Positions 25,244 through 37,818 of a stretch of DNA of 64,000 nt are shown piece by piece. The notes below the pieces were generated by a model. The model worked only from the letters and a program-made list of their open reading frames with translations. It had not been told where the DNA came from and ran no database searches. How positions within the stretch are numbered: position 1 is the stretch's first letter; each line of letters opens with the position of its first letter. Origin of the DNA: Thauera sp. GDN1 (GTDB taxonomy: Bacteria > Pseudomonadota > Gammaproteobacteria > Burkholderiales > Rhodocyclaceae); NCBI RefSeq assembly GCF_029223545.1, contig NZ_CP097870.1, positions 3,534,001 to 3,598,000 on the forward strand, given 5' to 3'. A program made the translations under genes and the position numbers.

Positions 25244-25786
25244 TCAAGCCGCCGAGGGCGGGCGCGCCAGCTTGCGCTGCAGGGTGCGGCGGTGCATCTG
25301 CAGCGCGCGCGCGGTCGCCGAGATGTTGCCCTCGTGCTCGGCGAGCACGCGCTGGATGTGCTCCCACTCGAGGCGATCGACCGACATCGGGGCGTCGGGC
25401 ACGTGATCCTCGAGCACGACCTCCTCGGCACGCAGGGCGCGCACGATGCTGTCGACGTCGGCCGGCTTGGCCAGGTACTGGATCGCCCCGAGCTTAACCG
25501 CATCGACCGCGGTGGCGATGCTGGCATAGCCGGTCAGCACCAGGATGCGCGCGCCGGGACTGGCATCGAGCAGCGGGCGGATCAGCTTCAGCCCCGACTC
25601 GCCGCCGATGTTGAGGTCGAGCACGATGAACTCGGGCTCGTGATCGCGCGCGAGCTCGAGCGCGCCCTCGCTGTCGGTGGCGCCGTAGGTGTCGAAGCCG
25701 CGCTGGCCGAGCGCGCGCACCAGCACCTTGTTGAAGGCGGGATCGTCATCGACGACGAGCAGGCAGGGGGCGTTGTCCGCGGTCAT
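25244..25786 (-). CDS. regA: RegA/PrrA/ActR-type response regulator
   Basis: A 180-residue two-component regulator. Receiver domain: acidic pocket DDD near residues 13-15, phosphoacceptor D57 in IVLDLNIGGESG and conserved Lys in YLAKPAD. The C-terminal Fis-type helix-turn-helix is the hallmark of the RegA family: WEHIQRVLAEHEGNIS and TARALQMHRRTLQRKL. RegA homologues control energy-related genes (respiration, denitrification, nitrogen fixation, photosynthesis) according to redox state. Its start overlaps the end of the sensor gene (ATGA), so the pair is coupled. The operon is divergent from nosZ, and sequences resembling RegA/RegR sites occur in the nos promoters. Confidence 0.9.
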   Translation of the reverse strand: MTADNAPCLLVVDDDPAFNKVLVRALGQRGFDTYGATDSEGALELARDHEPEFIVLDLNIGGESGLKLIRPLLDASPGARILVLTGYASIATAVDAVKLGAIQYLAKPADVDSIVRALRAEEVVLEDHVPDAPMSVDRLEWEHIQRVLAEHEGNISATARALQMHRRTLQRKLARPPSAA

Positions 25787-27120
25787 CGGCAAACCTGTTC
25801 GGGAATCAGCATGCGCGCAATCGTGCCACCACCGGGCCGGGAACGGAATTCCAGGCGACCGCCGTGGTGCTCGATCGCGGCATGCGCCAGCATCAGGCCG
25901 ACCCCCATGCCCTGGGCGTGGGCGCCGAGCGGCGCGTGGCGGGCGGCGTCCACCCGCGCCGGGTCGAGGCCCGGGCCGCGGTCGAGCACCTCGACGAGGA
26001 CCAGGTCGTCCTCGCGGCCCATGGCCAGCTCCACCGCCACGTCGTCCTTGCCGGCGCGTGCGTTCGCGTTGGCGGCGTTGTCGATCAGGTTGTGCAGCGC
26101 CTCGCCGAGCGAGGCATCGGCGACGATGACCGCCGCGGGATCGGCGGCATTCGCCCGCATCTCCAGCGCGGCGCCCGGACGCAGCCGCTGCCAGCGCGCC
26201 GCCACCTCGCGCGCCCAGGCCAGCGCGTCGACCGCGCCGCCGCCCTCCGCGCGCTGCTGGCCGGCCTCTCGCGTCAGGCCGTTGAGGATGTCGCGGCAAT
26301 GGTCGATCTGCTCGCGCATCAGCTCCACGTCCTCGCGCAGCTCGACAGCGAGCTCGGGCCTGGTCACGAGGTCGTCGGCGACGATGCGCAGGGTGCCGAG
26401 CGGCGTGCCCAGCCGGTGCGCCGCGCCGGCGGCGAGCTTTCCGAGGCCGACCACGTAGGCGTCGCGCGCGCGCGCGGCATCGACCGCGGCCAGCTCGTCG
26501 TCGCGGCGCGCGAGCTCCGCGTTCAGGCGCACGATGAACCACACGACCGTCACCGCCGACAGCGCGAAGCTGATCCACATACCGGCCAGATGCCAGTACA
26601 TGGCCTGGTCGGCGTCGGCCAGATGGACCGGCTGGTGGTACTGCCACAGCAGCGAATAGACGGTGACCGCGAGCGCCGCCAGCAGCCAGGCCTGCAGCGC
26701 CGGCAGGATCGAGGCGCCGACCGCGACCACCGGCAGCAGCAACGAGATCGCCGGATTGGTGACACCGCCGGTGAAGTACAGGAAGGCCGCCCAGGCCACC
26801 AGGTCCACGATCAGCTGCAGCAGGGCGCCCCAGCGTCCGACCAGCCATTCGGCGACGCCGCCGAGCAGGGCGAGGTTCACCGCCAGCAGGCACAGGGTGA
26901 CGCCGGCCAGCGGCGCCACCGGCTGCGCGGGCGCCAGCCAGGGGAAGACCACCAGGCTCATCAGCGCCATCGCCACCAGCGACACCCAGCGCAGCTGCAG
27001 CAGGCGGCCGCGGTCGGTGCGCACCGCGCTCAGCACCCGGGTCGGCGTCAGCGCGGACGGGGGACGCTCCAGCATCCGGTCATCGACATCCGCCACGGTC
27101 TCGTTGCTCTTCACCTGCAT
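25783..27120 (-). CDS. regB: RegB/PrrB-type redox-sensing histidine kinase
   Basis: A 445-residue sensor with about six N-terminal membrane helices, then a cytoplasmic kinase. GGVTNPA at residues 118-124 resembles the GGxxNPF quinone-sensing motif of RegB, with Ala in place of Phe. The H-box is AAHRLGTPL with phospho-accepting H235 (RegB usually has HELGTPL). A Cys lies exactly 40 residues later (C275), the same spacing as H225 and redox-active C265 of Rhodobacter RegB as I recall it. N-box HNLIDNAANAN and a glycine-rich GMGVGLMLAHA ATP lid follow. It senses aerobic electron flow and phosphorylates RegA. Divergent from nosZ, 215 bp away. Confidence 0.9.
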   Translation of the reverse strand: MQVKSNETVADVDDRMLERPPSALTPTRVLSAVRTDRGRLLQLRWVSLVAMALMSLVVFPWLAPAQPVAPLAGVTLCLLAVNLALLGGVAEWLVGRWGALLQLIVDLVAWAAFLYFTGGVTNPAISLLLPVVAVGASILPALQAWLLAALAVTVYSLLWQYHQPVHLADADQAMYWHLAGMWISFALSAVTVVWFIVRLNAELARRDDELAAVDAARARDAYVVGLGKLAAGAAHRLGTPLGTLRIVADDLVTRPELAVELREDVELMREQIDHCRDILNGLTREAGQQRAEGGGAVDALAWAREVAARWQRLRPGAALEMRANAADPAAVIVADASLGEALHNLIDNAANANARAGKDDVAVELAMGREDDLVLVEVLDRGPGLDPARVDAARHAPLGAHAQGMGVGLMLAHAAIEHHGGRLEFRSRPGGGTIARMLIPEQVCR

Positions 27121-27159: not shown

Positions 27160-27201
27160 TTGTTTTATATCAAGGTTTACTGATTTCCGTCTTCATAGAA
27201 T
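27160..27201 (+). promoter_or_regulatory. nosZ promoter: FNR/DNR-type box plus -10
   Basis: TTGTT-TTAT-ATCAA at 27160-27173 matches the FNR/DNR box TTGAT-N4-ATCAA in nine of ten positions. A TAGAAT hexamer at 27196-27201 predicts a start near 27208, which places the box centre at about -41.5, the class II activation position. This fits anaerobic, possibly NO-dependent, induction of nosZ and gives a leader of about 128 bases. The start site is predicted, not measured. Confidence 0.7.
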
Positions 27202-27207
27202 TCAGGT

Positions 27208-27239
27208 GCGACAAAACGTCACAGGACAAATTGTCACAG
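27208..27239 (+). promoter_or_regulatory. tandem 15-bp repeats in the nosZ leader (possible RegA site)
   Basis: Two adjacent copies of GACAAAnnGTCACAG (27210-27224 and 27225-27239) differ only at the two n positions. The first lies within GCGACAAAACGTCAC (27208-27222), which fits the RegR box consensus GNGRCRTTNNGNCGC in 8 of 11 informative positions. The second contains the palindrome GACAA-A-TTGTC. The same GACAA-N10-GACAAAT spacing recurs before nosR at 29414. Binding by RegA or another regulator is inferred. Confidence 0.45.
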
Positions 27240-27252
27240 GTCGCCGGAACGC

Positions 27253-27339
27253 ATGAACAGCCAGCGCGAGGGGCGCAGCGGCGTGGTACCCGGCCTGTGG
27301 GAATCGATCACACCTGCCTACGGGAGCAAGAAACCATGA
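27253..27339 (+). CDS. possible 28-codon leader ORF ending on the nosZ start codon
   Basis: An ATG at 27253 opens a 28-residue frame (MNSQREGRSGVVPGLW and 12 more residues) whose TGA overlaps the nosZ ATG as ATGA. It lies inside the predicted nosZ leader transcript. Its own ribosome site is weak (GGAAC), and short frames like this are common by chance in GC-rich DNA. If translated, it would couple or attenuate nosZ translation. No similarity is recognised. Confidence 0.25.
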   Translation: MNSQREGRSGVVPGLWESITPAYGSKKP

Positions 27340-29294
27340 ACGACGCAAAAATGAACCAGGTCGACGCCATGCCCGACCCGAGCCGCCGCAAGTTCCTGAA
27401 CACCGCGGCGCTTGCCGGCCTTGCCGGCGCCGGCCTGTCGGTCGGCCTGTCCGCGTGCAACAAGGAATCCGCTCCCGCTCCGGCCGCTGCACCGGCTGCC
27501 GCGCCCGCTCCGGCACCCGCCGCGGCGCACGCCGCCTCCGACCTCAAGCTGCACATGGCACCGGGCGAACTCGACACCTACTACGGCGTGTGGTCCGGCG
27601 GCCACTCCGGTGAATGCCGCGTGCTCGGCCTGCCCTCCGGCCGCGAGATCAAGCGCATCCCGACCTTCAACATCGACTGCATGAGCGGCTGGGGCATCAC
27701 CAACGAGTCGAAGAAGATCATCGGCACCCGCCCCGACGGTCAGCTCAAGTACAAGACCGGCGACACCCACCACGTCCACGGTTCGTACACCGACGGCACC
27801 TACGACGGCAAGTACTTCTGGGTCAACGACAAGATCCACGGCCGCCTCGCCCGCATCCGCGGCGACATCTTCGAGTGCGATGCGATCACCGAGCTGCCCA
27901 ACATCCAGGGCTTCCACGGCATCTTCTCGGACAAGCGCGACCCGGTCGACAAGGCGATCAACCACACCACGCGCGTGTTCTGCGGCAACGAGTTCCACAT
28001 CCCGCAGCCCAACGACGGCCACGACCTGGACGACCCGAGCAAGTACTACTGCCTGTTCACCTGCGTCGACGCCGAGACCATGGAAGTGCGCTGGCAGTGC
28101 AAGGTCGACGGCAACATGGACCTCGTCGCCACCTCGTACGACGGCCGCTTCGCCTGCTCCAACCAGTACAACGTGGAAGGTGGCGCGCGCTACGAGGACA
28201 TGATGTCGGCCGAGATGGACGCCTGCGTGTTCTTCGACGTCGCCCGCATCGAGAAGGCGATCAAGGACGGCAAGTCCTTCACCGTCGGCAACTCCAAGGT
28301 CCCGGTGGTCGACGGCACCAAGGCCGCCAACCCCGATCCGAAGACCGCACTGACCGCCTACGTGCCGGTGCCCAAGAACCCGCACGGCGTCAACGCCAGC
28401 CCGGACGGCAAGTACATGATCTGCTCGGGCAAGCTGTCGCCCACCTGCACGGTCATCGAGGTCGCCAAGGTCGCCGACTTCTTCGACGGCAAGCTCGACG
28501 ACGTCCGCAAGGCGGTGGTCGCCGAAGTCGAAGTCGGCCTCGGCCCCCTGCACACCACCTACGACGGCCGCGGCAACGCCTTCACGACGCTGTTCCTGGA
28601 CAGCCAGATCGTCAAGTGGAACATCGACGCCGCGATCAAGTTCCACAATGGCGACAAGGCCGTGCAGTACGTGGTCGACCGCATCGACGTGCATTACCAG
28701 CCGGGCCACATCAGCGCCAACATGGGCGAAACCAAGGAAGCCAGCGGCCAGTTCCTGGCGGTGGGCTGCAAGTTCTCGAAGGACCGCTTCCTGCCGGTCG
28801 GCCCGATGCACCCGGAAAACGAGCAGCTGATCGACATCCGCGGCGAGAAGATGGTGCTGCTGGCCGACCACCCGGTGCATCCGGAGCCGCACGACTTCAT
28901 CATCGTCAACCGCGACATCATCAAGACCAAGCAGGTCGGCACGCTCGACGCCCACCCGCTCGCGGTCAAGGATGCCAAGGAATCGGGCGTGTTCCGCGAC
29001 GGCAACAAGGTCACGGTGAAGATCGCTTCCCTGGCGCCGGCCTACACCCTGCGCGAGTTCGAGCTCAAGGTCGGCGACGAGGTCACGCTGATCCTGACCA
29101 ACCTCGACAAGGTGGAAGACCTGTCGCACGGCTTCGCGATTCCGAAGTACGACATCAACTTCGTGGTGAACCCGCAGGAGACCAAGTCGGTCACCTTCAA
29201 GGCCGACAAGCCGGGCGTGTTCTGGTGCTACTGCACGCACTTCTGCCACGCGCTGCACCTGGAGATGCGTTCGCGCATGATCGTGCGCCCGTAA
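27336..29294 (+). CDS. nosZ: nitrous oxide reductase, atypical Tat/lipobox form
   Basis: Reduces N2O to N2 in the periplasm, the last step of denitrification. The 652 residues start with a Tat motif (SRRKFLN, 16-22). Unlike the usual signal it ends in a lipobox (LSAC, C41), followed by an Ala/Pro linker to about residue 68. All seven CuZ histidines are present: H145, H146, H194, H350, H406, H458 and H519. CuA ligands are H598, C633, C637, H641 and M644. The CuA loop reads CTHFCHALHLEM, so the usual Trp (carbonyl ligand) is His635, and an extra Cys (C631) is adjacent. Sixteen Cys in total is high for NosZ. The ATG at 27336 has GGGAG about 10 bases before it. A terminator follows at 29338, so it is a single-gene unit. 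Confidence 0.95.
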   Translation: MNDAKMNQVDAMPDPSRRKFLNTAALAGLAGAGLSVGLSACNKESAPAPAAAPAAAPAPAPAAAHAASDLKLHMAPGELDTYYGVWSGGHSGECRVLGLPSGREIKRIPTFNIDCMSGWGITNESKKIIGTRPDGQLKYKTGDTHHVHGSYTDGTYDGKYFWVNDKIHGRLARIRGDIFECDAITELPNIQGFHGIFSDKRDPVDKAINHTTRVFCGNEFHIPQPNDGHDLDDPSKYYCLFTCVDAETMEVRWQCKVDGNMDLVATSYDGRFACSNQYNVEGGARYEDMMSAEMDACVFFDVARIEKAIKDGKSFTVGNSKVPVVDGTKAANPDPKTALTAYVPVPKNPHGVNASPDGKYMICSGKLSPTCTVIEVAKVADFFDGKLDDVRKAVVAEVEVGLGPLHTTYDGRGNAFTTLFLDSQIVKWNIDAAIKFHNGDKAVQYVVDRIDVHYQPGHISANMGETKEASGQFLAVGCKFSKDRFLPVGPMHPENEQLIDIRGEKMVLLADHPVHPEPHDFIIVNRDIIKTKQVGTLDAHPLAVKDAKESGVFRDGNKVTVKIASLAPAYTLREFELKVGDEVTLILTNLDKVEDLSHGFAIPKYDINFVVNPQETKSVTFKADKPGVFWCYCTHFCHALHLEMRSRMIVRP

Positions 29295-29411: not shown

Positions 29412-29461
29412 GCGACAATTTGACGCTGGACAAATACACGTCGGCCGTCGCCGCCTAAACT
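29412..29461 (+). promoter_or_regulatory. nosR promoter region: RegR-like box, weak FNR-like box, -10
   Basis: GCGACAATTTGACGC at 29412-29426 fits the RegR box GNGRCRTTNNGNCGC in 10 of 11 informative positions. It overlaps a weak FNR-like sequence, TTGAC-GCTG-GACAA (29420-29433, 7 of 10). A TAAACT hexamer at 29456-29461 would put the start near 29468 and the FNR-like centre near -41.5. GACAA at 29414 and GACAAAT at 29429 repeat the 15-base spacing seen before nosZ. Function is inferred from pattern and position only. Confidence 0.5.
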
Positions 29462-29489: not shown

Positions 29490-31667
29490 ATGAAGCCCCT
29501 CTCCGCCCTGCGGGGCATTGCGATGGCGGCGATCCTCGCCACCGCTTCCCTGCTGTCCCCGGTCGCCTCGGCACAAACCGCCTACGAGGCCCCGCTGCCA
29601 GCGGACATCAACACCAACCCCGATCTCTGTGCCAACCTCCCCTGCAAGGAGGTGCTGCCGGGTGCCGACAGCTTCTCCGAACGCAAGGGGAAGCCCACCT
29701 ACGTCGAGGCCTACCGCAACGAAGGCGGCCAGAAGTCGCTCGCCGGCTACGTCTTCCTGTCCACCGACATCGTCGACATCCCCGCCTATTCGGGCAAGCC
29801 GGTGATCACGCTGATCGGCATGGACACCAAGGGCATCATCACCGGCACCAAGATCCTGCGTCACAGCGAACCGATCCTGCTGCTCGGCATCCCCGAGAGC
29901 GTGCTGACCAAGTTCGTGAACCAGTATCTCGGCAAGTTCGTCGGCGACAAGATCGAGATCGGCAAGTCGCGCGAGGGCGAGGGCGTCATCGGCCTGGACG
30001 CGATCACCGGTGCCACCGTCACCGTGATCGCGCAGAACCAGGTGATCATGCGTTCGGGCGTGGCGATCGCCCGCCAGGTCGGCATCCTCAAGGTGGAACC
30101 CAAGCCGGCGATCAAGTTCTCCGCGGTCGATGAAAAGCTGAGCTGGGAGCAGCTGGTCAAGGAAGGCAGCGTGCGCCGCCTGACCGTGAAGCCCGAGCAG
30201 CTGGGCATGCCGCGCGGGCCGCAGCCCTACGTCGACATGTACTACGGCTACCTGAACACGCCGACGGTGGGCCGCAGCATCCTCGGCGACAACGGCTACA
30301 GGAGCCTGATGTCCTCGCTCAAGCCGCACGAGAACGCGATCTTCATCGTCTCCAACGGTACCGACTCGTTCAAGGGCTCGGGCTTCGTGCGCGGCGGCAT
30401 CTACGACCGCGTGCAGGTCGGCCAGGACATGGACGCCTACACCTTCCGCGACCTCGACTACCTCAACCTGTGGGGCGTGAAGGCCGAAGGCGCGCCGAGC
30501 TACAAGGAATCGGCGATCTTCATCATCCGCGACGCCGGCTTCAGCGCGGCCTACCCGTGGAACCTGGTGTTCCTGGCGAACAAGCTCGACCGCGAGACCG
30601 GCCACCGCGACTTCGTCAGCTTCAGCGACGAGTACTGGGTGCTCGACCGCTACATGGAAGGCGGGCGGCCGAAGGTGGTCAAGCCCGACGCGCCGTGGGT
30701 GAAGGTGTGGAAGTCGCGCGTGCTCGAGATCGTGCTGTTCTCCGCGCTGCTGATCGCCGTGGCGGTCGTCTATGCCAATCGCGACGCGCTGACCCGGCGC
30801 TCGACGCGCAAGAACAAGTGGCCGGTCAACGCCTTCAAATACACCTTCTGGGTCATCAGCATCGGCTTTGTCGGCTTTGGCCTGCTCGCCCAGCCCTCGA
30901 TCACCCAGGTGCTGACCTGGTTCCATTCGCTGCTGTTCCAGTGGCAGTGGGAACTCTTCCTCACCGACCCCTTCATCTTCCTGTTCTGGATCTTCATCAT
31001 CCTGACCACCTTCGTGTGGGGCCGCGGCCTGTTCTGCGGCTGGATGTGCCCCTTCGGCTCGCTCTCCGAGCTGATCTACAAGGTGGCCGGCGCCATCGGC
31101 CTCAAGCGCTTCCAGTTCGCCCTGCCGATGAAGTGGCACAACCGCCTGAAGTGGGTGAAGTACGCGGTGTTCTTCGGCCTGCTCGCGGTGTCGGTGTTCT
31201 CGATGGGCCTGGCGGAGATGCTCGCCGAGGTGGAGCCGTTCAAGACCACCTTCCTCGTCGGCATGTTCAACCGCGCCTGGCCCTACACCCTGTTCGTCGC
31301 GGTGCTGCTCGGCCTGTCGATCTTCATCGAGCGGCCGTTCTGCAAGTACCTGTGTCCGCTCGGCGCCTCGCTCGCGATGCCGTCGACCTTCCGCTGGTTC
31401 GGCCTCAAGCGCAAGCAGGAATGCAACAGCTGCAAGGCCTGCGCGGTGGGTTGTGGTTCGCTCGCGATCGACGAGCATGGCCGCATCGACCATCGCGAGT
31501 GCATGCACTGCCTCGACTGCATGGTGCTCTACACCGACGAGCACGCCTGCCCGCCGCTGGCGCAGGAGCGCAAGCGGCGCACCAAGGCCGGCCTGCCGCT
31601 GACCCCGATCGGCGCGGACGGCTACTACATTCCGATCAAGCCGATGCCGGCCGCACCCCGGACCTGA
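29490..31667 (+). CDS. nosR: NosR membrane iron-sulfur flavoprotein
   Basis: A 725-residue polytopic protein needed for nos expression and for electron supply to NosZ. In order: a signal sequence (to about residue 28); a periplasmic FMN-binding domain with covalent-flavin motif DAITGATVT at 170-178; then membrane helices from about 413 on. CGWMCP (516-521) and CKYLCP (618-623) are the NapH-like motifs. A C-terminal ferredoxin domain holds C645, C648, C651, C655, then C671, C674, C677 and C687. The length equals that of Pseudomonas NosR. Start: ATG at 29490 has GGAG at a good distance; the ATG at 29478 has none. Here nosR follows nosZ instead of preceding it. Confidence 0.95.
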   Translation: MKPLSALRGIAMAAILATASLLSPVASAQTAYEAPLPADINTNPDLCANLPCKEVLPGADSFSERKGKPTYVEAYRNEGGQKSLAGYVFLSTDIVDIPAYSGKPVITLIGMDTKGIITGTKILRHSEPILLLGIPESVLTKFVNQYLGKFVGDKIEIGKSREGEGVIGLDAITGATVTVIAQNQVIMRSGVAIARQVGILKVEPKPAIKFSAVDEKLSWEQLVKEGSVRRLTVKPEQLGMPRGPQPYVDMYYGYLNTPTVGRSILGDNGYRSLMSSLKPHENAIFIVSNGTDSFKGSGFVRGGIYDRVQVGQDMDAYTFRDLDYLNLWGVKAEGAPSYKESAIFIIRDAGFSAAYPWNLVFLANKLDRETGHRDFVSFSDEYWVLDRYMEGGRPKVVKPDAPWVKVWKSRVLEIVLFSALLIAVAVVYANRDALTRRSTRKNKWPVNAFKYTFWVISIGFVGFGLLAQPSITQVLTWFHSLLFQWQWELFLTDPFIFLFWIFIILTTFVWGRGLFCGWMCPFGSLSELIYKVAGAIGLKRFQFALPMKWHNRLKWVKYAVFFGLLAVSVFSMGLAEMLAEVEPFKTTFLVGMFNRAWPYTLFVAVLLGLSIFIERPFCKYLCPLGASLAMPSTFRWFGLKRKQECNSCKACAVGCGSLAIDEHGRIDHRECMHCLDCMVLYTDEHACPPLAQERKRRTKAGLPLTPIGADGYYIPIKPMPAAPRT

Positions 31668-31695: not shown

Positions 31696-32118
31696 ATGAT
31701 CGACCCCCGCAGCATGACCGAACCGGTGACCCCGCCCTATGCTGGCGGCGGCGTGGCGCGAATCGGCGCCGAGATCTGGGATCACCTGTGGCCCTGGAGC
31801 CGCAGCGGCTTCCAGCGCCAGCGCGCGATCCAGGCCGCCGGCCTGGCGCTCGCGCTCGCCGCCACCGTGGCCTGGGTGCTGGCGGCGATGGGCAACCTGA
31901 CCCCGGCTGCGATCATCGGCTGGTGGTTCGGCTGGAGCGTGTTCGAGGTCGTGGTGCGTCTCGGCTCCAAGCCCTACGTCAAGGAGGGCCCGTGGTGGGG
32001 CCAGCGCTATCGCCGGGCGAGCGTGATGGACATGATCTGCTACGTCGGCTTCAAGAACCTGCTGATCGGCGCCGCGCTGTTCCTCGGCCTCAAGAGCCTC
32101 GGTATGCTTGTCGTCTGA
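31696..32118 (+). CDS. uncharacterised membrane protein in the nosR transcript
   Basis: A 140-residue protein that I do not recognise. It has three hydrophobic segments: AAGLALALAATVAWVLAAMG, IIGWWFGWSVFEVVV and YVGFKNLLIGAALFLGLKSL. Between them are Trp-rich and basic stretches (WDHLWPWSR, GPWWGQRYRR). It starts 28 bp after nosR with a strong GAGGAG ribosome site, and a terminator follows at once. It therefore belongs to a nosR operon and may assist NosR or electron input, but this is inferred only from position. Confidence 0.75.
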   Translation: MIDPRSMTEPVTPPYAGGGVARIGAEIWDHLWPWSRSGFQRQRAIQAAGLALALAATVAWVLAAMGNLTPAAIIGWWFGWSVFEVVVRLGSKPYVKEGPWWGQRYRRASVMDMICYVGFKNLLIGAALFLGLKSLGMLVV

Positions 32119-32142: not shown

Positions 32143-32174
32143 GACGCGCCGCCCACCGGGCGGCGCGTCGTTTT
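32143..32174 (+). terminator. intrinsic terminator ending the nosR transcript
   Basis: Perfect 12-bp stem GACGCGCCGCCC/GGGCGGCGCGTC with an ACC loop, followed by GTTTT. It lies between the nosR-linked membrane protein gene and the nosD promoter. Confidence 0.85.
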
Positions 32175-32198: not shown

Positions 32199-32240
32199 TT
32201 CACCTAAATCAAGTCGTACTGCGGCATTCGGCCGCATACT
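32199..32240 (+). promoter_or_regulatory. nosD promoter: FNR-like box, RegR/RegA-like box and -10
   Basis: TTCAC-CTAA-ATCAA (32199-32212) matches the FNR/DNR box in 8 of 10 positions. GCGGCATTCGGCCGC (32221-32235) fits the RegR box GNGRCRTTNNGNCGC at every informative position and also resembles the RegA pattern GCGGC-N5-GTCGC. CATACT (32235-32240) can be the -10 and puts the start near 32247, with the FNR centre at about -41.5. The two box centres are 22.5 bases apart. The cytochrome c promoter at 37777-37818 repeats this layout. Confidence 0.6.
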
Positions 32241-32269
32241 TCGGGCTACCCTCAACTGCGACCGAATCG

Positions 32270-33556
32270 ATGTCCTTCATACACACGTTCTGCCGACTGA
32301 CCGCTGCACTCGCGCTGGGAGCGGGACTGGCGGCGCCGGCCGGAGCAGCGACGTGGCGTGTGCAGCCCGGCGAATCCATCCAGGCCACCATCGACCGCGC
32401 GGCCCCCGGCGACGTGATCGAGATCGAGCGCGCGCGCTATTTCGGCCACCTGCTGGTCGACAAGCCGCTGACCCTGCGCGGCCTCGACCGCCCGACGATC
32501 GACGGCGAGCTGAAGGAAAACACCATCAGCGTGAAGGCCGAGAACGTCACGATCGAGGGCCTGATCGTCACCAACTCGGGCGGCGACACGCTGTACCAGC
32601 ACGCCGGCGTCTATATCTACCCCGGCTCGCACAAGGCGGTGGTGCGCAACTGCGACTTCTCCTACACCCTGTTCGGGCTGTGGATCGAGAAGGCCAACGA
32701 CGTGCTGATCGAGAACAACCTCATCACCGGCAAGCGCGACTTCGACTCGCCCAAGCGCGGCAACGGCATCCAGCTCTACAACACCCAGCGCGCGCGCATC
32801 ATCGGCAACAACGTCAGCTTCGTGCGCGACGCGATCTACGTCGACGTCTCCCACGACGCGATCTTCCGCGGCAACAAGCTGCACCACAGCCGCTACGGCA
32901 CGCACTACATGACCTCCTACCGCAACGTCTGGGAGGACAACGAGACCTGGTACAACCGCGGCGGCCTGGCGCTGATGGAAGTGCGCGACCAGGTCGTGCG
33001 CAACAACCGCGCGTGGGGCAACTCCGATCACGGCATCATGCTGCGCACGATCCAGGACGCGGTGATCGAGAACAACATCGTCGCCGGCAACCAGCGCGGC
33101 TTCTTCATCTATGACGCCGAATACAACGAGCTGCGCGGTAACCGGATCATCGACAACGTCGTCGGCATCCACCTGTGGGCGGGCTCGAAGAACAACAAGG
33201 TCGAGCGCAACGACTTCATCGCCAACCGCGAGCAGATCCGCTACGTCGCCGCGCGCGACATGATCTGGGGCGAGCAGGAAGGCAACCACTGGAGCAACTA
33301 CCTGGGCTGGGATCGCAACGGCGACGGCATCGGCGACGTCCAGTACGAGGCCAACGACCTCGTCGACCGCCTGACCTGGCGCCATCCGATGATGAAGCTG
33401 CTGCTCGGCAGCCCGGCCATCCAGACCCTGCGCATGGTGGCCCAGCAGTTCCCGCTGCTGCGTGCGCCCAGCATCGTGGACCCCAACCCGCGCATGGAAC
33501 CGAACAACCCTGACTGGAGCCAATGGCGTGGCAGATATTTCCCCCGCTCAGAATGA
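32270..33556 (+). CDS. nosD: NosD, periplasmic copper-site maturation protein
   Basis: A 428-residue exported protein with a cleavable signal (LTAALALGAGLAAPAGAA) and a right-handed beta-helix built from CASH/PbH1-type repeats (for example GVYIYPGSHKAVVRNCDF, NDVLIENNLITGKRDF and NRIIDNVVGIHLWAG). NosD works with the NosFY ABC transporter to deliver sulfide and copper for CuZ assembly. It contains the family Trp/Asn-rich NHWSNYLGWDRNGDG segment near residue 345. The end overlaps the nosF start by 29 bases. Confidence 0.95.
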   Translation: MSFIHTFCRLTAALALGAGLAAPAGAATWRVQPGESIQATIDRAAPGDVIEIERARYFGHLLVDKPLTLRGLDRPTIDGELKENTISVKAENVTIEGLIVTNSGGDTLYQHAGVYIYPGSHKAVVRNCDFSYTLFGLWIEKANDVLIENNLITGKRDFDSPKRGNGIQLYNTQRARIIGNNVSFVRDAIYVDVSHDAIFRGNKLHHSRYGTHYMTSYRNVWEDNETWYNRGGLALMEVRDQVVRNNRAWGNSDHGIMLRTIQDAVIENNIVAGNQRGFFIYDAEYNELRGNRIIDNVVGIHLWAGSKNNKVERNDFIANREQIRYVAARDMIWGEQEGNHWSNYLGWDRNGDGIGDVQYEANDLVDRLTWRHPMMKLLLGSPAIQTLRMVAQQFPLLRAPSIVDPNPRMEPNNPDWSQWRGRYFPRSE

Positions 33557-34469
33557 CGCCGGCGCACCGGTGATCGTCGCCCGCGGCGTTCGCAAGCACT
33601 ACGGCCCCATCCACGCCGTCGATGGCGTGGACCTCGAGGTCCGCAGCGGCGAACTGTTCGGCCTCATCGGCCACAACGGCGCGGGCAAGAGCACCATGTT
33701 CAAGATGATGCTGGGGCTGATCCCGCAGACCGCTGGCGAGATCCGCATCGACGGCGCCCCGGTGCCGGGCAGCGACTTCCGCACGGTACGGCGCAAGGTC
33801 GGCTACCTGCCCGAGAACGTCGTGCTCTACGACAACCTCACCGGCGCCGAGACGCTGGACTTCTTCGCCCGCCTGAAGGGCGTGTCGCCGGCGAACAACG
33901 CCGCGCTGCTCGAGCGCGTCGGCCTGATGCACGCGGCCCGGCGCCGCGTGCGCGAATACTCCAAGGGCATGCGCCAGCGCCTCGGCTTCGCCCAGGCCCT
34001 GCTCGGCAAGCCGCGCATCCTGTTTCTCGACGAGCCCACCACCGGCCTCGACCCGGAGGCGATCCGCGGCTTCTACGCCATCCTGCGGCAGTTGAAGAGC
34101 GAGGGCGTGACCATGGTGATCACCTCGCACATCCTGGCCGAGATCCAGGAGCGGGTGGACCGGCTGGCGATCATGGCCGCCGGCAAGGTGCAGGCCACCG
34201 GCACGGTGCAGGCCCTGCGCGAGCAGATGGACCTGCCGCTGTGGTTCGACGTCCGCGTCGCGCCGGAGGACTTCGAGTCGGTGCGCAACGTGCTCGCCGA
34301 CCTGCCGGTGGGCGCGGTCGAGGCCCGCGACGGCCACATCGCGGTGCAGTGCGCGCGCGACGCCAAGATGACGGTGATCGCCGCGCTCGCCACCCTCAAC
34401 GGCAAGGTGCGCGACCTCACGGTGCGCGAGCCTTCCCTCGAAGACGTGTTCTTCGGCTTTTCCGACTGA
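33528..34469 (+). CDS. nosF: NosF, ABC transporter ATPase
   Basis: A 313-residue ATPase that pairs with NosY to energise NosD for NosZ maturation. Walker A is GHNGAGKS at residues 48-55, the signature is YSKGMRQRLG, Walker B is ILFLDEPTTGLD and the switch His is in ITSHIL. Start: GTG at 33528, eight bases after GGAG (33516-33519), is chosen because the conserved sequence begins shortly after and no ATG lies between. The start falls inside the end of nosD, so translation is coupled. Confidence 0.93.
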   Translation: MADISPAQNDAGAPVIVARGVRKHYGPIHAVDGVDLEVRSGELFGLIGHNGAGKSTMFKMMLGLIPQTAGEIRIDGAPVPGSDFRTVRRKVGYLPENVVLYDNLTGAETLDFFARLKGVSPANNAALLERVGLMHAARRRVREYSKGMRQRLGFAQALLGKPRILFLDEPTTGLDPEAIRGFYAILRQLKSEGVTMVITSHILAEIQERVDRLAIMAAGKVQATGTVQALREQMDLPLWFDVRVAPEDFESVRNVLADLPVGAVEARDGHIAVQCARDAKMTVIAALATLNGKVRDLTVREPSLEDVFFGFSD

Positions 34470-34479
34470 GAGGCGGACC

Positions 34480-35295
34480 ATGGAGTTTTCGCAAGTCGCC
34501 ACCATCGCCGGCAAGGAGTTCTGGGACCGCATCCGCAACCGCTGGGTGCTGGCCGTGGCGCTGGTGTTCACCGTGTTCGCGCTGTCGATCGCCTACTTCG
34601 GCTCGGCGCAGCAGGGCGCGGTGGGTTTCCGCTCGATCGAGGTCACCATCGCCAGCCTGGTCAGCCTGGTCATCTACCTGATCCCGCTGATCGCGCTGGT
34701 GCTGGGCTTCGACGCCATCGTCGGCGAGCGCGAGCGCGGCTCGCTCGACCTGCTGCTGTCGATGCCGATCACCCGCCTCGAGCTGCTGCTCGGCAAGTAC
34801 CTGGGCCTGGCCGGCGCACTCACCTTCTCCACCGTCGCCGGCTTCGGCCTGGTGGGCGTGGTGCTGGCGTCCCAGCTCGACCTCTCCGCGCTGTTCCACT
34901 ACTTCGGCTTCATGCTCAGCTCGGTGCTGCTCGGCTGCGCCTTCCTCAGCCTGGCGGTGATGCTGTCGGTGTTTGCCGCCGACCGCACCCGCGCCTCCGG
35001 ACTGGCGATCGCGATGTGGTTCTTCTTCGTGCTGATCTTCGACCTGCTGGTGCTCGGCGTGCTGGTCGTGACCGCCGGCCAGTGGGGCGGCGAAGCCCTG
35101 CCCTACGCGCTGCTGCTGAATCCGGCCGACGTCTTCCGCATCCTGAACATCTTCTCGATGGACGATGTCCGCACCCTGTACGGCCTGTCGACCGTGTTCC
35201 CGCCCGCGCTGGCGCAGCCCTGGCTGCTCGGCCTGGTGATGGCGGCATGGATCGCCGGCCCGCTGGCGATCGCGGCGTGGCGCTTCCGCCGCTGA
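34480..35295 (+). CDS. nosY: NosY, ABC transporter permease
   Basis: A 271-residue inner-membrane permease with six predicted helices. The N-terminal VATIAGKEFWDRIRNRWVL and the conserved GERERGSLDLLLSMPITRLELLLGKY coupling segment (about residues 85-110) are typical of NosY. It begins 10 bp after nosF. With NosF and NosD it forms the complex that supplies the CuZ site. Confidence 0.93.
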   Translation: MEFSQVATIAGKEFWDRIRNRWVLAVALVFTVFALSIAYFGSAQQGAVGFRSIEVTIASLVSLVIYLIPLIALVLGFDAIVGERERGSLDLLLSMPITRLELLLGKYLGLAGALTFSTVAGFGLVGVVLASQLDLSALFHYFGFMLSSVLLGCAFLSLAVMLSVFAADRTRASGLAIAMWFFFVLIFDLLVLGVLVVTAGQWGGEALPYALLLNPADVFRILNIFSMDDVRTLYGLSTVFPPALAQPWLLGLVMAAWIAGPLAIAAWRFRR

Positions 35296-35334
35296 TCGCG
35301 CCCACACACTGAACCGGATGGAGTGAGTTTCCCC

Positions 35335-35877
35335 ATGTGCACACATCACGCCTGCCTGAGCCGTCGCCGCTTCCTGATCGCCGGCGCCGCAGCCGGACTG
35401 CTCGCCGCCTGCGGCAGCGGTAACGACAGCGGCGGCGGCGCCATCGCGCCGCTCGAGTTCGACCGCAGCACCAGTTGCGCGCTCGACGGCATGCTGCTCG
35501 CCGACTATCCCGGCCCCAAGGTGCAGATGCACTACGCCGGCGTCCCGCGCCCGGACTGGTTCTGCGACACCATCGAGATGTTCAACGTCTATCTGAACCC
35601 GGAGCAGGCCCGCCTGGTCACCGCGCTCTACGTCCAGGACATGGGCAAGGCCGAGTGGGACAAGCCGGTCGGCCACTGGATCGACGCGAAAAAGGCCTTC
35701 TACGTGTTCGGCTCCAAGCGCCTGGGCGCGATGGGCCCGACCGCCGCCTCCTTCGCCAGCGAGGCCGACGCCAAGGCCTTCGCCGCCGAGCACGGCGGCA
35801 AGATGCTGCGCTTCGACGAGGTCACGCCCGACATGGCGATCCTCGACGGCGGCGCCCTGCACGACCAGTCGATGTAA
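35335..35877 (+). CDS. nosL: NosL copper chaperone lipoprotein
   Basis: A 180-residue lipoprotein. The signal combines a twin-arginine-like SRRRFLI (9-15) with a lipobox LAAC (C26). The mature part has CALDGMLL, which matches the Cys-x-x-x-Gly-Met copper(I) site of NosL. Conserved YVFGSKRLGAMGPTAASFASE and AKAFAAEHGGKMLRFDEVT follow. NosL delivers Cu(I) to NosD/NosZ. The start is ATG 35335; a GTG at 35323 is also possible. A second NosL-like protein is encoded at 36529. Confidence 0.9.
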   Translation: MCTHHACLSRRRFLIAGAAAGLLAACGSGNDSGGGAIAPLEFDRSTSCALDGMLLADYPGPKVQMHYAGVPRPDWFCDTIEMFNVYLNPEQARLVTALYVQDMGKAEWDKPVGHWIDAKKAFYVFGSKRLGAMGPTAASFASEADAKAFAAEHGGKMLRFDEVTPDMAILDGGALHDQSM

Positions 35878-35891
35878 GCAGGAGGACGACG

Positions 35892-36161
35892 ATGAACCCG
35901 ATCTTCGATGCCATCCCCCCCGAGGACGCGCTCGAGCTCGAGCAGATCACCCGCCTGATCTACGAGTCGCGCGAGAACCGCCGCAAGGTGCTGGACGCCG
36001 TCGGCGCCAGCGACGAGGCTGCGCTGCTCGCCCGCATCGCCGCCGGCGAGATCGACGAGCACCCGGCCTACGAGCACTATCTCGCCGCCCGCATCCTGGC
36101 CGACACCCACGCGGCCGCCCGCGAGGTGGTCGGCAAGCGCCTGCAGGAGATCAACCGCTGA
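35892..36161 (+). CDS. small uncharacterised protein in the nosL operon
   Basis: An 89-residue soluble, acidic, mostly helical protein (DALELEQITRLIYESRENRRKV, in part). It has no signal peptide, no cysteines and no family that I recognise. It starts 15 bp after nosL with an AGGAGG ribosome site and overlaps the next gene by one base (TGATG). Its position between two NosL-type genes suggests a part in nos maturation or regulation, but nothing in the sequence shows it. Confidence 0.7.
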   Translation: MNPIFDAIPPEDALELEQITRLIYESRENRRKVLDAVGASDEAALLARIAAGEIDEHPAYEHYLAARILADTHAAAREVVGKRLQEINR

Positions 36162-36532
36162 TGAGCCTGCACACCGCACTGCTCGAATACGTCGAGCGCG
36201 AACATGGGGATGCCCTGCTCACCCCGCCGCAACTGGCGCAGGACGCGCTGACCGTGGTGCTGACGAACGGCGTGGTGCTCACCGTGCGCTACGCTGCGAC
36301 GGACGCCTACTCCCTGCGCTGGCGCAGCAGCCTGCATGCCGACGGTGTCGAGCTCGGCATCGACACCGCACCCACCCACCCGCAGCTCGCCACCACGCCG
36401 AACCACCTGCACCTTGCCGACGGCACGGTCGTCGCCGATCCGCTGACGCAGCCCGGTGGCGCCCCCGAGCACAACCTCGCGCGCGTGATCGAGGCCCTGC
36501 TGCGTGATCCACAGCTGAAGGATTGCGCATGA
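36161..36532 (+). CDS. uncharacterised protein in the nosL operon
   Basis: A 123-residue soluble protein of unknown family. It contains beta-rich stretches (ALTVVLTNGVVLTVRYA and HLHLADGTVVADPLTQPGG) and several histidines. No signal peptide is visible. It is coupled to both neighbours: its ATG overlaps the previous stop (TGATG) and its stop overlaps the next start (ATGA). Such tight packing argues for a real gene that works with the NosL-type proteins. Function unknown. Confidence 0.7.
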   Translation: MSLHTALLEYVEREHGDALLTPPQLAQDALTVVLTNGVVLTVRYAATDAYSLRWRSSLHADGVELGIDTAPTHPQLATTPNHLHLADGTVVADPLTQPGGAPEHNLARVIEALLRDPQLKDCA

Positions 36533-37161
36533 CGAGCCCGGTATGGCGCCGCCGGCTGCTGCTCGCCGGCGCGGCGAGCGCACTCGCTGCGGGCAGCGCG
36601 CTGTTCCTGGATTACGGCAGCCGGCCGGGACTCGGCTTCGAGCCACCGGCCGAGGACGTATGCGTCGTCGCACCCGCGCGGGTGACCGAACCCCATGCCT
36701 ACGATCCGGCGAGCGGGCTTGCGATGTACGAGGCCCGCCCGGTGCCTGCGGATGCGCGCTGCCCGATCTGCGGCATGTATCCGGCGCGCTTCCCGCGCTG
36801 GGCGGCGCAGCTCATCTTCAAGGACGGCGCCGCCCACTTCTTCGACTCCCCGGTCGACCTGTTCATGTACCTGGAGACGCCCGAACGCTTCGGCTCCGAG
36901 CGCAAGCCTGCGGACGTGGCGGCGGTCTACGTCGCCGACTTCCGCAACGGCGCCTGGCTGCCCGCGCGGCAGGCGGTGTTCGTGCGCGACTCCAGGGCGC
37001 GCGGCCCGATGCGCGGCCCCGACCTGCCCGCCTTCGCCGACGCGGCCACCGCCCAGGCCTTCATCGCCGAACAGGGCGGTCGCGCGCTGTCCTTCGAGCA
37101 GATCGACGCCAGCGTCGTCAGCGGCCTGCGCGACGCCAACCACGCCCAGCACATGCACTGA
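36529..37161 (+). CDS. second NosL-like protein with a CPICGM copper motif
   Basis: A 210-residue protein with a twin-arginine-type N-terminus (WRRRLLLAGAASALAAGSALF) that may be a Tat signal or an uncleaved anchor. The mature part carries CPICGMYPARFPRWAAQLIF, the classical NosL motif, followed by HFFDSPVDLFMYL, VYVADFRNGAWLPARQAVFV and FIAEQGGRALSFEQI. It lacks the lipobox of nosL. The role is probably copper handling for NosZ, either redundant with nosL or specialised. It is the last gene of the nosDFYL transcript, and a bidirectional terminator follows. Confidence 0.85.
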   Translation: MTSPVWRRRLLLAGAASALAAGSALFLDYGSRPGLGFEPPAEDVCVVAPARVTEPHAYDPASGLAMYEARPVPADARCPICGMYPARFPRWAAQLIFKDGAAHFFDSPVDLFMYLETPERFGSERKPADVAAVYVADFRNGAWLPARQAVFVRDSRARGPMRGPDLPAFADAATAQAFIAEQGGRALSFEQIDASVVSGLRDANHAQHMH

Positions 37162-37187
37162 ACACGCCTGGGCGCGCACCATAATGC

Positions 37188-37211
37188 AAACGGGGCCCGC
37201 AGGCCCCGTTT
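37188..37211. terminator. bidirectional terminator between the nos operon and the cytochrome c gene
   Basis: Perfect 10-bp stem AAACGGGGCC/GGCCCCGTTT with a CGCA loop. The A-run before and T-run after let it act on both strands, ending the nosD-to-nosL2 transcript and the convergent cytochrome c transcript. Confidence 0.8.
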
Positions 37212-37255
37212 CTCGCTCGGTGCGACCCGCTTACCGCGGGCCGCAGCGTCTCGCC

Positions 37256-37720
37256 TTACTTCGACTTGCCGACCATGAAGTCGACCGCCGCCTTCACGTC
37301 GGCGTCGCTCAGCGAGGCACCGCCGCCGCGCGGGGGCATCATGCCCTTGGAGCCGGTGAAGCCTTCGATCGCATGCTTGTACAGGATGTCGTTGCCCTGG
37401 GCGATACGCGGACCCCAGTCGTCCTTGTTGCCCGGGATCGGGGCACCGGCGACGCCAGAGGCGTGGCACAGCGCGCAGACCTTCTTGTACGTGCTCTCGC
37501 CGGCGGCATTGGCCGGCGCCGCGGCCGCGGCCGGGGCGGCAGCCGGTGCAGGCGCAGCCGCAGGCGCGGCGGCGGGGGCCGGAGCAGCGGCCGGAGCGGC
37601 AGCGGCGGGGGCCTGTGCCGGCGCGGCCGCGGGCTTGGCCGCGCTGCCGCTGTCGGAACCGCCACAGGCAGCGAGCAGGACAGATGCCGCGGCGGCGATC
37701 AGGAAGGGAAACTTGTTCAT
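37256..37720 (-). CDS. lipoprotein c-type cytochrome (cytochrome c5-like) with Ala/Pro linker
   Basis: A 154-residue monohaem cytochrome. The N-terminus is a lipoprotein signal (lipobox LAAC, Cys19), followed by an Ala/Pro-rich linker of about 55 residues. The haem domain has CALCH near residue 83, SGVAGAPIPGNKDDWGPRI and the distal Met in GSKGMMPPRGG, as in cytochrome c5. It probably carries electrons in the periplasm while tethered to the membrane; the nos context and its FNR-type promoter point to a donor for N2O reduction. The linker resembles the one in NosZ. It converges on the NosL-like gene. Confidence 0.88.
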   Translation of the reverse strand: MNKFPFLIAAAASVLLAACGGSDSGSAAKPAAAPAQAPAAAAPAAAPAPAAAPAAAPAPAAAPAAAAAPANAAGESTYKKVCALCHASGVAGAPIPGNKDDWGPRIAQGNDILYKHAIEGFTGSKGMMPPRGGGASLSDADVKAAVDFMVGKSK

Positions 37721-37776
37721 GCGCTTTCTCCGTTTTGTCATGGTCTGTGTCGCAGCGATGCCCTGCGAATGCCCGA

Positions 37777-37818
37777 ACACTAGCGTCAAAATCTCACGAG
37801 GTGATTGATAGCCGTCAA
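37777..37818 (-). promoter_or_regulatory. cytochrome c promoter: FNR box and RegR/RegA-like box
   Basis: Read on the minus strand: TTGAC-GGCT-ATCAA (37818-37805), nine of ten positions of the FNR box, then GTGAGATTTTGACGC (37797-37783), 10 of 11 informative positions of the RegR box GNGRCRTTNNGNCGC. A weak -10 (TAGTGT) lies at 37782-37777. The box centres are 21.5 bases apart, against 22.5 in the nosD promoter, and the order and orientation are the same. Start site near 37770 predicted. Confidence 0.6.

Follow-up and report, generated by a model that had tools for sequence, protein, structure and literature searches.

Conserved FNR-type and RegR/RegA-type boxes at the Thauera nosD promoter suggest an accelerator and a brake on N2O-reductase genes

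Two-regulator promoters of nos and nor genes

The closest described counterparts of the locus analysed here are the norC and nosR promoters of Bradyrhizobium (PMC4064962, PMC5582078), where FixK2 and RegR likewise control N2O reductase genes. The nosR promoter is alike in having an FNR-family box near -40.5 of TSS1 and putative RegR boxes 3' of the FixK2 box. Bradyrhizobium RegR is a global regulator, mostly activating under anoxia, and its putative boxes are imperfect and differ in the spacing of their half-sites, whereas the Thauera box conforms to the consensus, keeps a fixed gap of 8 bp and is accompanied by regBA beside nosZ. In R. capsulatus (PMC5359404, in excerpt) nosR and nosXLYFDZ are likewise under RegA control, being repressed by it in aerobic cultures on minimal medium, and nosYFDZ was also altered under photosynthetic growth; in Thauera the putative sites lie at nosD and between regB and nosZ, and the RegA- and RegB-like proteins score under the family cut-offs. 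The beta-proteobacterial DNR/NsrR promoters (PMC1274295, in excerpt) are alike in carrying an FNR-family activator site followed by the site of a second regulator nearer the gene, but there it is NsrR at norB, nirK and nnrS2, and here a RegA-type palindrome at nosD/nosZ. In B. pseudomallei, also a beta-proteobacterium, both RegAB and FNR affect nosZ (PMC8191878, in excerpt), and both are positive, unlike the brake proposed below for Thauera. Among the matches listed in our literature search, no description of the present promoter architecture in Thauera or its relatives was found.

Thauera is a common wastewater denitrifier. When N2O reductase is late or scarce relative to the earlier denitrification enzymes, N2O escapes. 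In our study, a window of 64,000 nucleotides from Thauera sp. GDN1 was analysed (Table 1). If the reading given below is true, a conserved two-input nosD promoter, a related nosZ promoter and an adjacent sensor pair would offer a direct handle on N2O-reductase timing. The box positions lead to a sharp prediction on the sign of the RegA effect.

Table 1. Features of the nos region and the cytochrome c locus (positions in the window)
Feature	Position	Strand	Remarks
regA-like response regulator gene	25247..25786	-	ActR/PrrA/RegA best NCBIfam match
regB-like histidine kinase gene, divergent from nosZ	25783..27120	-	ActS/PrrB/RegB best NCBIfam match
nosZ degenerate FNR-type box TTGTTTTATATCAA	27160..27173	+	-41.5 of implied start 27208
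nosZ -10 hexamer TAGAAT	27196-27201	+	for implied start 27208
Putative double RegA-type operator (TGCGACAAAACGTCACA + GACAAATTGTC), regB-nosZ intergenic	27207..27240	.	about -1..+33 of implied nosZ start
nosZ, TAT-type N2O reductase	27336..29294	+	TIGR04244 1034.8 bits (cut-off 625)
nosR degenerate FNR-type box TTGACGCTGGACAA	29420..29433	+	-41.5 of implied start 29468; -10 TAAACT
nosR-like gene	29490..31667	+	NF046105 622.2 bits, below cut-off 1000
nosD FNR/DNR-type box TTCACCTAAATCAA	32199..32212	+	exact match; centre -41.5 of implied start 32247
nosD RegR/RegA-type palindrome TGCGGC-N5-GCCGCA	32220..32236	+	about -27..-11
nosD -10 hexamer CATACT	32235..32240	+	exactly -12..-7 of implied start 32247
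nosD gene	32270..33556	+	PF05048 193.6 bits; TIGR04247 443.5 bits (cut-off 300)
Small cytochrome c gene	37256..37720	-	PF13442 and PF00034
Cytochrome c RegR-like match GTGAGATTTTGACGC	37783..37797	-	1 mismatch; probably no conserved site
Cytochrome c FNR/DNR-type box TTGACGGCTATCAA	37805..37818	-	exact match; -41.5 of implied start 37770

The nosD promoter and its conservation

A preliminary description of this DNA had reported an FNR-type box followed by a RegR/RegA-type box at both the nosD and the cytochrome c promoters. Its strings and coordinates were all found to be correct, as were the centre-to-centre distances of 22.5 bp (nosD) and 21.5 bp (cytochrome c) and the placement of the FNR-type boxes at -41.5, with CATACT and TAGTGT occupying precisely -12..-7 relative to the starts implied at 32247 and 37770. 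By sequence, the same combination of an FNR-type box at -41.5 and a -10 at -12..-7 is present at nosZ, nosR, nosD and cytochrome c. The RegR consensus used there, GNGRCRTTNNGNCGC, is the one in print (PMC5506826, in excerpt), and the two boxes depart from it by 0 and 1 mismatch respectively. The mismatch-free 15-bp box of nosD, GCGGCATTCGGCCGC (32221-32235, +), spans -26..-12 of the implied start. The product of nosD is required for building N2O reductase. With a putative activator-type site followed by a redox-regulator-type site where RNA polymerase lands, its promoter may work as an accelerator joined to a brake. A sigma-70 and terminator scan around nosD gave no match.

The conservation of this arrangement was scored at 48 nosD loci, comprising 22 Thauera rows and 26 other rows of the family; a nosD match was present in 91 of 150 family genomes, from which the 26 non-Thauera loci were scored, leaving out loci at contig ends (L022, L023, L029, L030) and distant homologues of about 28% (L025-L027, L031). 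The FNR-type box, 8-bp gap, RegR-type box and -10 were found together in 13/22 Thauera loci (window counted) and in 13 of the 15 in which nosD stands apart from the ORF before it; at all 15 of these the FNR-type box has 0-2 mismatches. Outside Thauera the pair occurs at 3/26 family loci, all from one genus, giving 16 of the 48 scored loci in two genera, and the gap measures 8 bp in 16/16. Fourteen of these 16 RegR-type boxes are exact to the published consensus and two carry one mismatch. Mean column information amounts to 1.63 bits over the palindrome, 1.02 over the 8-bp gap and 0.29 downstream, and bases 2, 4 and 6 of the -10 (A, A, T) are invariant in 16/16. Variation in the box is confined to degenerate positions of the consensus (2, 4, 9, 10, 12); the exceptions are two rows, which deviate at position 1 and position 7, respectively. 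Its symmetric pair of variable positions is Watson-Crick symmetric in only 9/16 sites, and therefore shows no covariation. Since the pair is conserved at these 16 nosD loci, it is, by this comparison, real and beyond chance.

The cytochrome c promoter and the wider occurrence of the pair

The matching architecture claimed for both promoters is borne out at nosD (16 loci) and not at cytochrome c. Among 18 cytochrome c loci, window counted, TTGA-N6-TCAA is present in all, whereas the RegR-like box has at most one mismatch in 1/18 (the window) and at most two in 2/18; loci at contig ends (L047, L050, L052, L053) and distant ones (L054-L061) were omitted from this count. Because a box with at most one mismatch is confined to the window, against 18/18 for the FNR-type box, it appears to be a product of chance or recent gain, and the promoter would be a plain FNR-type one. 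A genuine, recently gained site is very improbable: a match with at most one mismatch at two adjacent offsets does have a frequency of only 1.3e-4 across those loci, and the locus of G027 carries a related version with 2 mismatches, but the box has three or more mismatches in 16/18 loci, is weakly symmetric and was chosen by eye.

In the window, the FNR-type pattern with at most one mismatch occurs 17 times against 5.0 expected, and the RegR pattern with at most two mismatches is not enriched (137 vs 206.8 expected). The strict paired pattern has a single match in its own genome, at nosD, which does not fit the earlier idea of the paired spacing as a wider denitrification code; the TTGA-limited version has cytochrome c as its sole match there. 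Across 399 genomes of the order (13 from the same family, own genome counted among them), the paired pattern gave 15 matches vs 3 in a reversed control and was mismatch-free in the window only. Across 29 Thauera genomes, the strict pair was found at 26 places in 16 genomes vs 10 in the control; 8 of these places are nosD, 5 are copies of another sequence across five genomes and two are overlapping readings of a single place. A genome-wide paired code was rejected, as the 18 non-nosD places (13 minus copies) make a mild excess over the 10 of the control at most. By these counts the pair is all but restricted to nosD.

Taken by itself, the strict 15-bp box occurs at 67 places in 25/29 Thauera genomes, and its reversed control at 24 (3 vs 1 in the own genome); nosD explains 10 of the 67 and not the rest of the excess. 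Of 30 places judged by eye, 5 are nosD and the other recurring groups look coding. Four singletons (L147, L151, L157, L166) appear intergenic by eye. For the 17-bp palindrome, the own genome shows no enrichment (8 places vs 15 in the reversed control); six of the eight lie outside the nos cluster.

The RegB/RegA-like pair, the nosZ operator and a proposed brake

The regB/regA pair reported beside nosZ is present as RegB/RegA-like genes. Against the RegB/PrrB/ActS equivalog NF033792 the RegB-like protein scores 183.5 bits (best of 45 families, below the cut-off of 350), and against the RegA/PrrA/ActR equivalog NF033791 the RegA-like protein scores 185.8 bits (best of 81 families, below the cut-off of 250). 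Its recognition helix, MHRRTLQR, is identical in chains 1umq, which we take to be R. sphaeroides PrrA, and 3rqi, and in 24/24 Thauera RegA rows. A RegA orthologue of at least 79% identity is found in 24/29 Thauera genomes, and the five genomes without it also lack typical NosZ. The quinone heptad of the RegB-like protein reads GGVTNPA in the window in place of the expected GGXXNPF, and ends in NPA in 42/42 readable rows out of 44, many genes being counted twice and one row being Parazoarcus. Quinone sensing by this protein is uncertain, because the heptad deviates and both proteins score under the NCBIfam cut-offs.

These data also bear on whether the nosD palindrome may be a real operator of some regulator other than the nos-linked RegA, which we consider improbable. 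In two Thauera genomes (G025, G026) the palindrome is missing although RegA and the FNR box of nosD are both retained, and RegA-type sites have been called degenerate (PMC5506826, in excerpt); however, the palindrome agrees with the RegR consensus in print down to the asymmetric RTT core, the RegA helix is that of 1umq, and a related palindrome adjoins regB itself.

A putative double operator lies between regB and nosZ, and within it 27208-27222 (-) is an exact match to the RegR consensus. The operator is retained with 0-6 mismatches of 34 in 23/23 nosZ loci with regB adjacent and is absent from 3/3 without it (18-21 mismatches of 34), two of which still keep the FNR-type box; TT-N7-ATCAA lies 45-48 bp upstream of the operator in 24/26 nosZ loci, the distant NosZ relatives L214-L216 and L220 being left out. 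Judged from its sequence, the operator, which was outside the earlier claim, is a stronger partner to the nosD pair than cytochrome c. It could also serve regBA autoregulation with no direct effect on nosZ, a possibility that falls somewhat short of an even chance: the operator is missing in exactly the three nosZ copies without regB alongside, and toward regB it sits about 87-120 bp upstream of the start codon, but the start implied for nosZ falls within it, and nosD, 5 kb away from regB, has a similar palindrome. A RegR-like match at nosR (29412-29426, 1 mismatch) was rejected, as it overlaps the FNR-type box and is lost in most aligned relatives.

We propose, with about even confidence, that nosD has its own class-II-type promoter, where activation by FNR/DNR is combined with a RegA-type brake acting through the nosD palindrome and the nosZ operator. 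An FNR/DNR-family activator at -41.5 of nosD would contact RNA polymerase at low oxygen and/or with NO. The RegB/RegA-like pair would supply a second input through the palindrome filling the gap between the activator site and the -10, and also through the double operator located where nosZ transcription is implied to begin. A RegA-type protein bound at these positions (nosD box -26..-12, nosZ operator -1..+33) would obstruct RNA polymerase and most likely act as a brake, keeping N2O-reductase assembly and synthesis low until its redox state shifts. The boxes, their spacing, the -10, the conservation and the regB linkage are features of the sequence itself; which proteins bind, and whether RegA raises or lowers transcription, we infer. 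The DNR/NsrR promoters, with a repressor site downstream of the DNR site, are a precedent for this logic, and the aerobic repression by R. capsulatus RegA has the same sign. Weighing against the proposal are the activating RegR/RegA effects in other bacteria described below, the loss of the nosD palindrome in G025 and G026, the non-enrichment of that palindrome in the own genome, the excess of strict boxes beyond those at nosD, the missing covariation and the sub-cut-off scores of both proteins.

The preliminary description had favoured joint activation, in which RegA and an FNR-type protein would both raise nosD/nosZ transcription. This could run, for example, via a second start further downstream, to which the RegA box would be an upstream site. 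A brake is predicted rather than this, since the RegA-type sites lie in or just past the core promoter, and we regard joint activation as unlikely. Published RegA/RegR effects on nos genes are of both signs, and positive ones are known from B. japonicum, where RegR has a net activating effect on nos and nor genes under anoxia (PMC4064962), and B. pseudomallei, where RegA activates nosZ (PMC8191878, in excerpt). For norC of B. japonicum, we compute from published coordinates that a putative RegR box is situated at about -29..-17 relative to P1, the start that depends on FixK2; in the regR mutant P1 shows no significant change, and another start, 14 bp further downstream, is about 40% lower. At nosD, however, such a second start, 37-40 bp past the centre of the box, would have to lie at 32265-32268, close by the ATG at 32270, and the five columns past the -10 are unconserved (0.29 bits).

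If the brake is taken further, Thauera may possess a nos-dedicated, divergent RegB/RegA branch (GGVTNPA) whose operators in the nosD and nosZ core promoters form a redox brake over FNR/DNR, timing the onset of N2O reduction against the earlier denitrification steps; this wider reading is tentative. Eight CRP/FNR-type HTH domains score above cut-off in the own genome.

The nosD promoter pair and its geometry

In the preliminary description, an FNR-type box followed by a RegR/RegA-type box was proposed as a matching architecture of the nosD and cytochrome c promoters. The strings, strands and coordinates of both promoters were rechecked in the window and found to be correct, and the RegR consensus given there matches GNGRCRTTNNGNCGC, as printed in PMC5506826. 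The proposed placing of the FNR-box centre at -41.5 was also borne out by the sequence: when the start is predicted by arithmetic as lying 41.5 bp from that centre, CATACT (nosD) and TAGTGT (cytochrome c) fall exactly at -12 to -7. By identical arithmetic, TAGAAT of nosZ and TAAACT of nosR are placed at -12 to -7; at these two genes the FNR-type box is degenerate. With the hexamer so located in each, a class-II geometry with predicted starts is common by sequence to these four promoters of the cluster. FNR-type matches with up to one mismatch are enriched in the window (17 vs 5.0 expected), and RegR-type matches with up to two mismatches are not (137 vs 206.8 expected). The window's own genome (3.87 Mb, single contig) encodes eight CRP/FNR-type HTH domains over cut-off, which are candidate binders of the FNR-type boxes.

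The nosD upstream regions of 22 Thauera loci (window included) and of 26 from other genera of the family were scored for an FNR-type box and then for a RegR-type box 5-11 bp further on. nosD is set off from the preceding ORF by 128-167 bp in 15 of the 22 Thauera loci, and 13 of these 15 carry the pair, always with a gap of 8 bp and with 0-2 mismatches in the FNR box and 0-1 in the RegR box; the other two (genomes G025 and G026) have kept the FNR box and have no RegR-type match. The pair is absent in six Thauera loci where nosD lies 14-41 bp behind the preceding ORF, one locus is a chimeric gene of the kind described below for the second nosZ, and in the rest of the family it was found in 3/26 loci, all of one genus. 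Over the 16 nosD sites, which are related sequences and not independent counts, the FNR box and the RegR box average 1.69 and 1.63 bits per column, and the gap that separates them 1.02; the five -10 columns that follow reach 1.65 and the five beyond those 0.29. The nosD boxes are conserved while the gap and the downstream sequence have diverged. RegR-box variation is located at the degenerate consensus positions 2, 4, 9, 10 and 12, with positions 1 and 7 varying in a single row each, and these sites give no covariation, because positions 4 (R) and 12 (Y) are Watson-Crick symmetric in just 9/16.

Neither Pfam nor NCBIfam gave a match for an ORF of 140 amino acids that separates nosR from nosD. 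Many loci have it beside nosD, with 50-100% identity, and others do not (e.g. loci L096, L098, L104 and L130). A GC-rich hairpin followed by TTTT, noticed by eye between the preceding ORF and nosD, is a possible terminator on which the scanner made no call.

Coordinates of the features discussed (window positions unless a numbered locus, L, is named)
Feature	Position	Strand	Remark
FNR-type box, nosD	32199-32212	+	
RegR/RegA-type box, nosD	32221-32235	+	
FNR-type box, cytochrome c	37805-37818	-	
RegR-like box, cytochrome c	37783-37797	-	
Double RegA-type operator, 34 bp	27207-27240		TGCGACAAAACGTCACAGGACAAATTGTCACAGG; between divergent regB and nosZ; two RegA-type palindromes
First operator palindrome	27208-27222	-	RegR consensus match
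RegB-like kinase gene	25783-27120	-	
nosZ	27336-29294	+	
140-aa ORF	31696-32118		
Hairpin	32144-32168		
NosR-leader-like gene, Thauera sp. Sel9	L132:5893-6557		
NosR-leader-like gene, T. butanivorans	L133:5893-6463		
Symmetric 17-bp palindrome	L252:1501-1517		TGCGACAAGTTGTCGCA; own genome

Genome scans and the cytochrome c promoter

The preliminary description asked whether the paired spacing is enriched at denitrification promoters. In the window's own genome the strict paired pattern had a single match, at nosD; a version that accepted TTGA boxes alone and loosened the RegR part again had one, at cytochrome c. In 29 Thauera genomes the strict pair with gaps of 0-20 occurs at 26 places vs 10 for the reversed pattern, of which nosD makes up eight, and the remaining 18 include five copies of one sequence. 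Across 399 genomes of the order (13 from the window's own family), 15 places with up to two mismatches were found vs 3 in the control, the window's being the only one free of mismatches. By these scans of genome, genus and order, the pair belongs to the nosD promoter and does not form a code for denitrification promoters. The strict 15-bp box GCGRCATTNNGYCGC, in contrast, is in excess over its reversed control in the 29 Thauera genomes (67 vs 24); nosD accounts for 10 of the 67 places, and among the 30 judged by eye it was the only recurring promoter. By itself the box may mark a wider regulon. The 17-bp palindrome is not in excess in the own genome (8 places vs 15 in the control). A symmetric 17-bp palindrome elsewhere in that genome closely resembles the regB-nosZ half-sites.

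At the cytochrome c promoter, the FNR part of the proposed architecture stood, TTGA-N6-TCAA being present in 18/18 loci (window included), and the RegR part did not. With gaps of 7-8, the window alone (1/18) has a RegR-type match with no more than one mismatch, and the window and G027 (2/18) have one with no more than two, the other 16 loci having 3-8 mismatches. Across the same 18 loci, the frequency with which either of two adjacent offsets gives a match of one mismatch or fewer is 1.3e-4. By that figure alone the window's match stands out, but it was chosen by eye and is unconserved, and it is treated as a chance occurrence or a recent gain.

The regB-nosZ operator and the RegB/RegA-like pair

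Among 26 Thauera nosZ loci scored, the operator block is near-invariant (0-6 mismatches) in 23/23 with regB next door and absent (18-21 mismatches) in the three copies whose examined flank shows no regB match, which are one of two nosZ copies each in G003, G024 and G002. This distribution links the block to regB. A TT-N7-ATCAA box is located 45-48 bp before the block in 24/26 loci. The block overlaps the implied nosZ start and may serve regBA autoregulation, nosZ control or both. A second nosZ, present in both T. butanivorans and Thauera sp. Sel9, has behind it a gene that opens like the NosR leader (MERIMKPLTALR) and continues as NosD; in each of the two, the contig stops within this gene.

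The pair described beside nosZ is regB/regA-like, the best NCBIfam families being RegA (185.8 bits) and RegB (183.5 bits), both under the curated cut-offs (250 and 350, respectively). The two genes share a 4-bp overlap and are read away from nosZ. One and the same RegA helix, MHRRTLQR, is present in 3rqi, in 1umq, which we take to be PrrA, and in 24/24 Thauera RegA rows. The heptad of the RegB-like kinase is GGVTNPA in place of the GGXXNPF given for RegB in PMC8191878. It ends in NPA in 42/42 readable rows, of 44. The cysteine before ILN (HCRDILNGL) is kept; it may be the redox cysteine of RegB.

A RegA orthologue is present in 24/29 Thauera genomes, and the five without it (G009, G012, G013, G014 and G017, of which G013 is 68% and G017 77% complete) are also without typical NosZ. 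In G022 (77% complete), RegA and nosD are present and a NosZ match is absent. Among the matches listed for the own genome, the RegA-like ones next in rank span the receiver, with identities no higher than 38%. Of the five genomes without the RegA orthologue, G012, G014 and G009 (loci L214, L215 and L216) have only distant NosZ relatives of about 40% identity.

Possible direction of control

Control of nos genes by FNR-family and RegA-family proteins is already known. Judged by literature listings, what is new is a nosD pair with a fixed gap, shared by Thauera and one other genus, together with a double operator that goes with regB and the linkage of a divergent RegBA pair to the nos cluster. 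Relative to the implied starts, the nosD palindrome spans about -27 to -11 and the nosZ block about -1 to +33. A brake, in which a RegA-type protein obstructs RNA polymerase, is favoured at roughly even confidence over joint activation with an FNR/DNR-family activator, the sign being one that sequence cannot fix. In At. ferrooxidans, RegA binding is mostly upstream of -35, the exceptions being tet and a rus fragment, and the authors judge repression by whether RegA binds across the polymerase site (PMC5506826). nosR and nosXLYFDZ of R. capsulatus are described as repressed by RegA aerobically in minimal medium (PMC5359404), and norC-lacZ is higher in a B. japonicum regR mutant at 2% oxygen (PMC4064962). 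Against a brake, activation is reported for anoxic B. japonicum, where RegR raises nos and nor expression (PMC4064962), and for B. pseudomallei, where RegA is positive for nosZ (PMC8191878). By our own arithmetic on PMC4064962 and PMC5582078, putative RegR boxes of B. japonicum lie near -29 to -17 of the FixK2-dependent norC start and near +11 to +25 of nosR TSS1, and this similar placing is a likely precedent for the Thauera box geometry.
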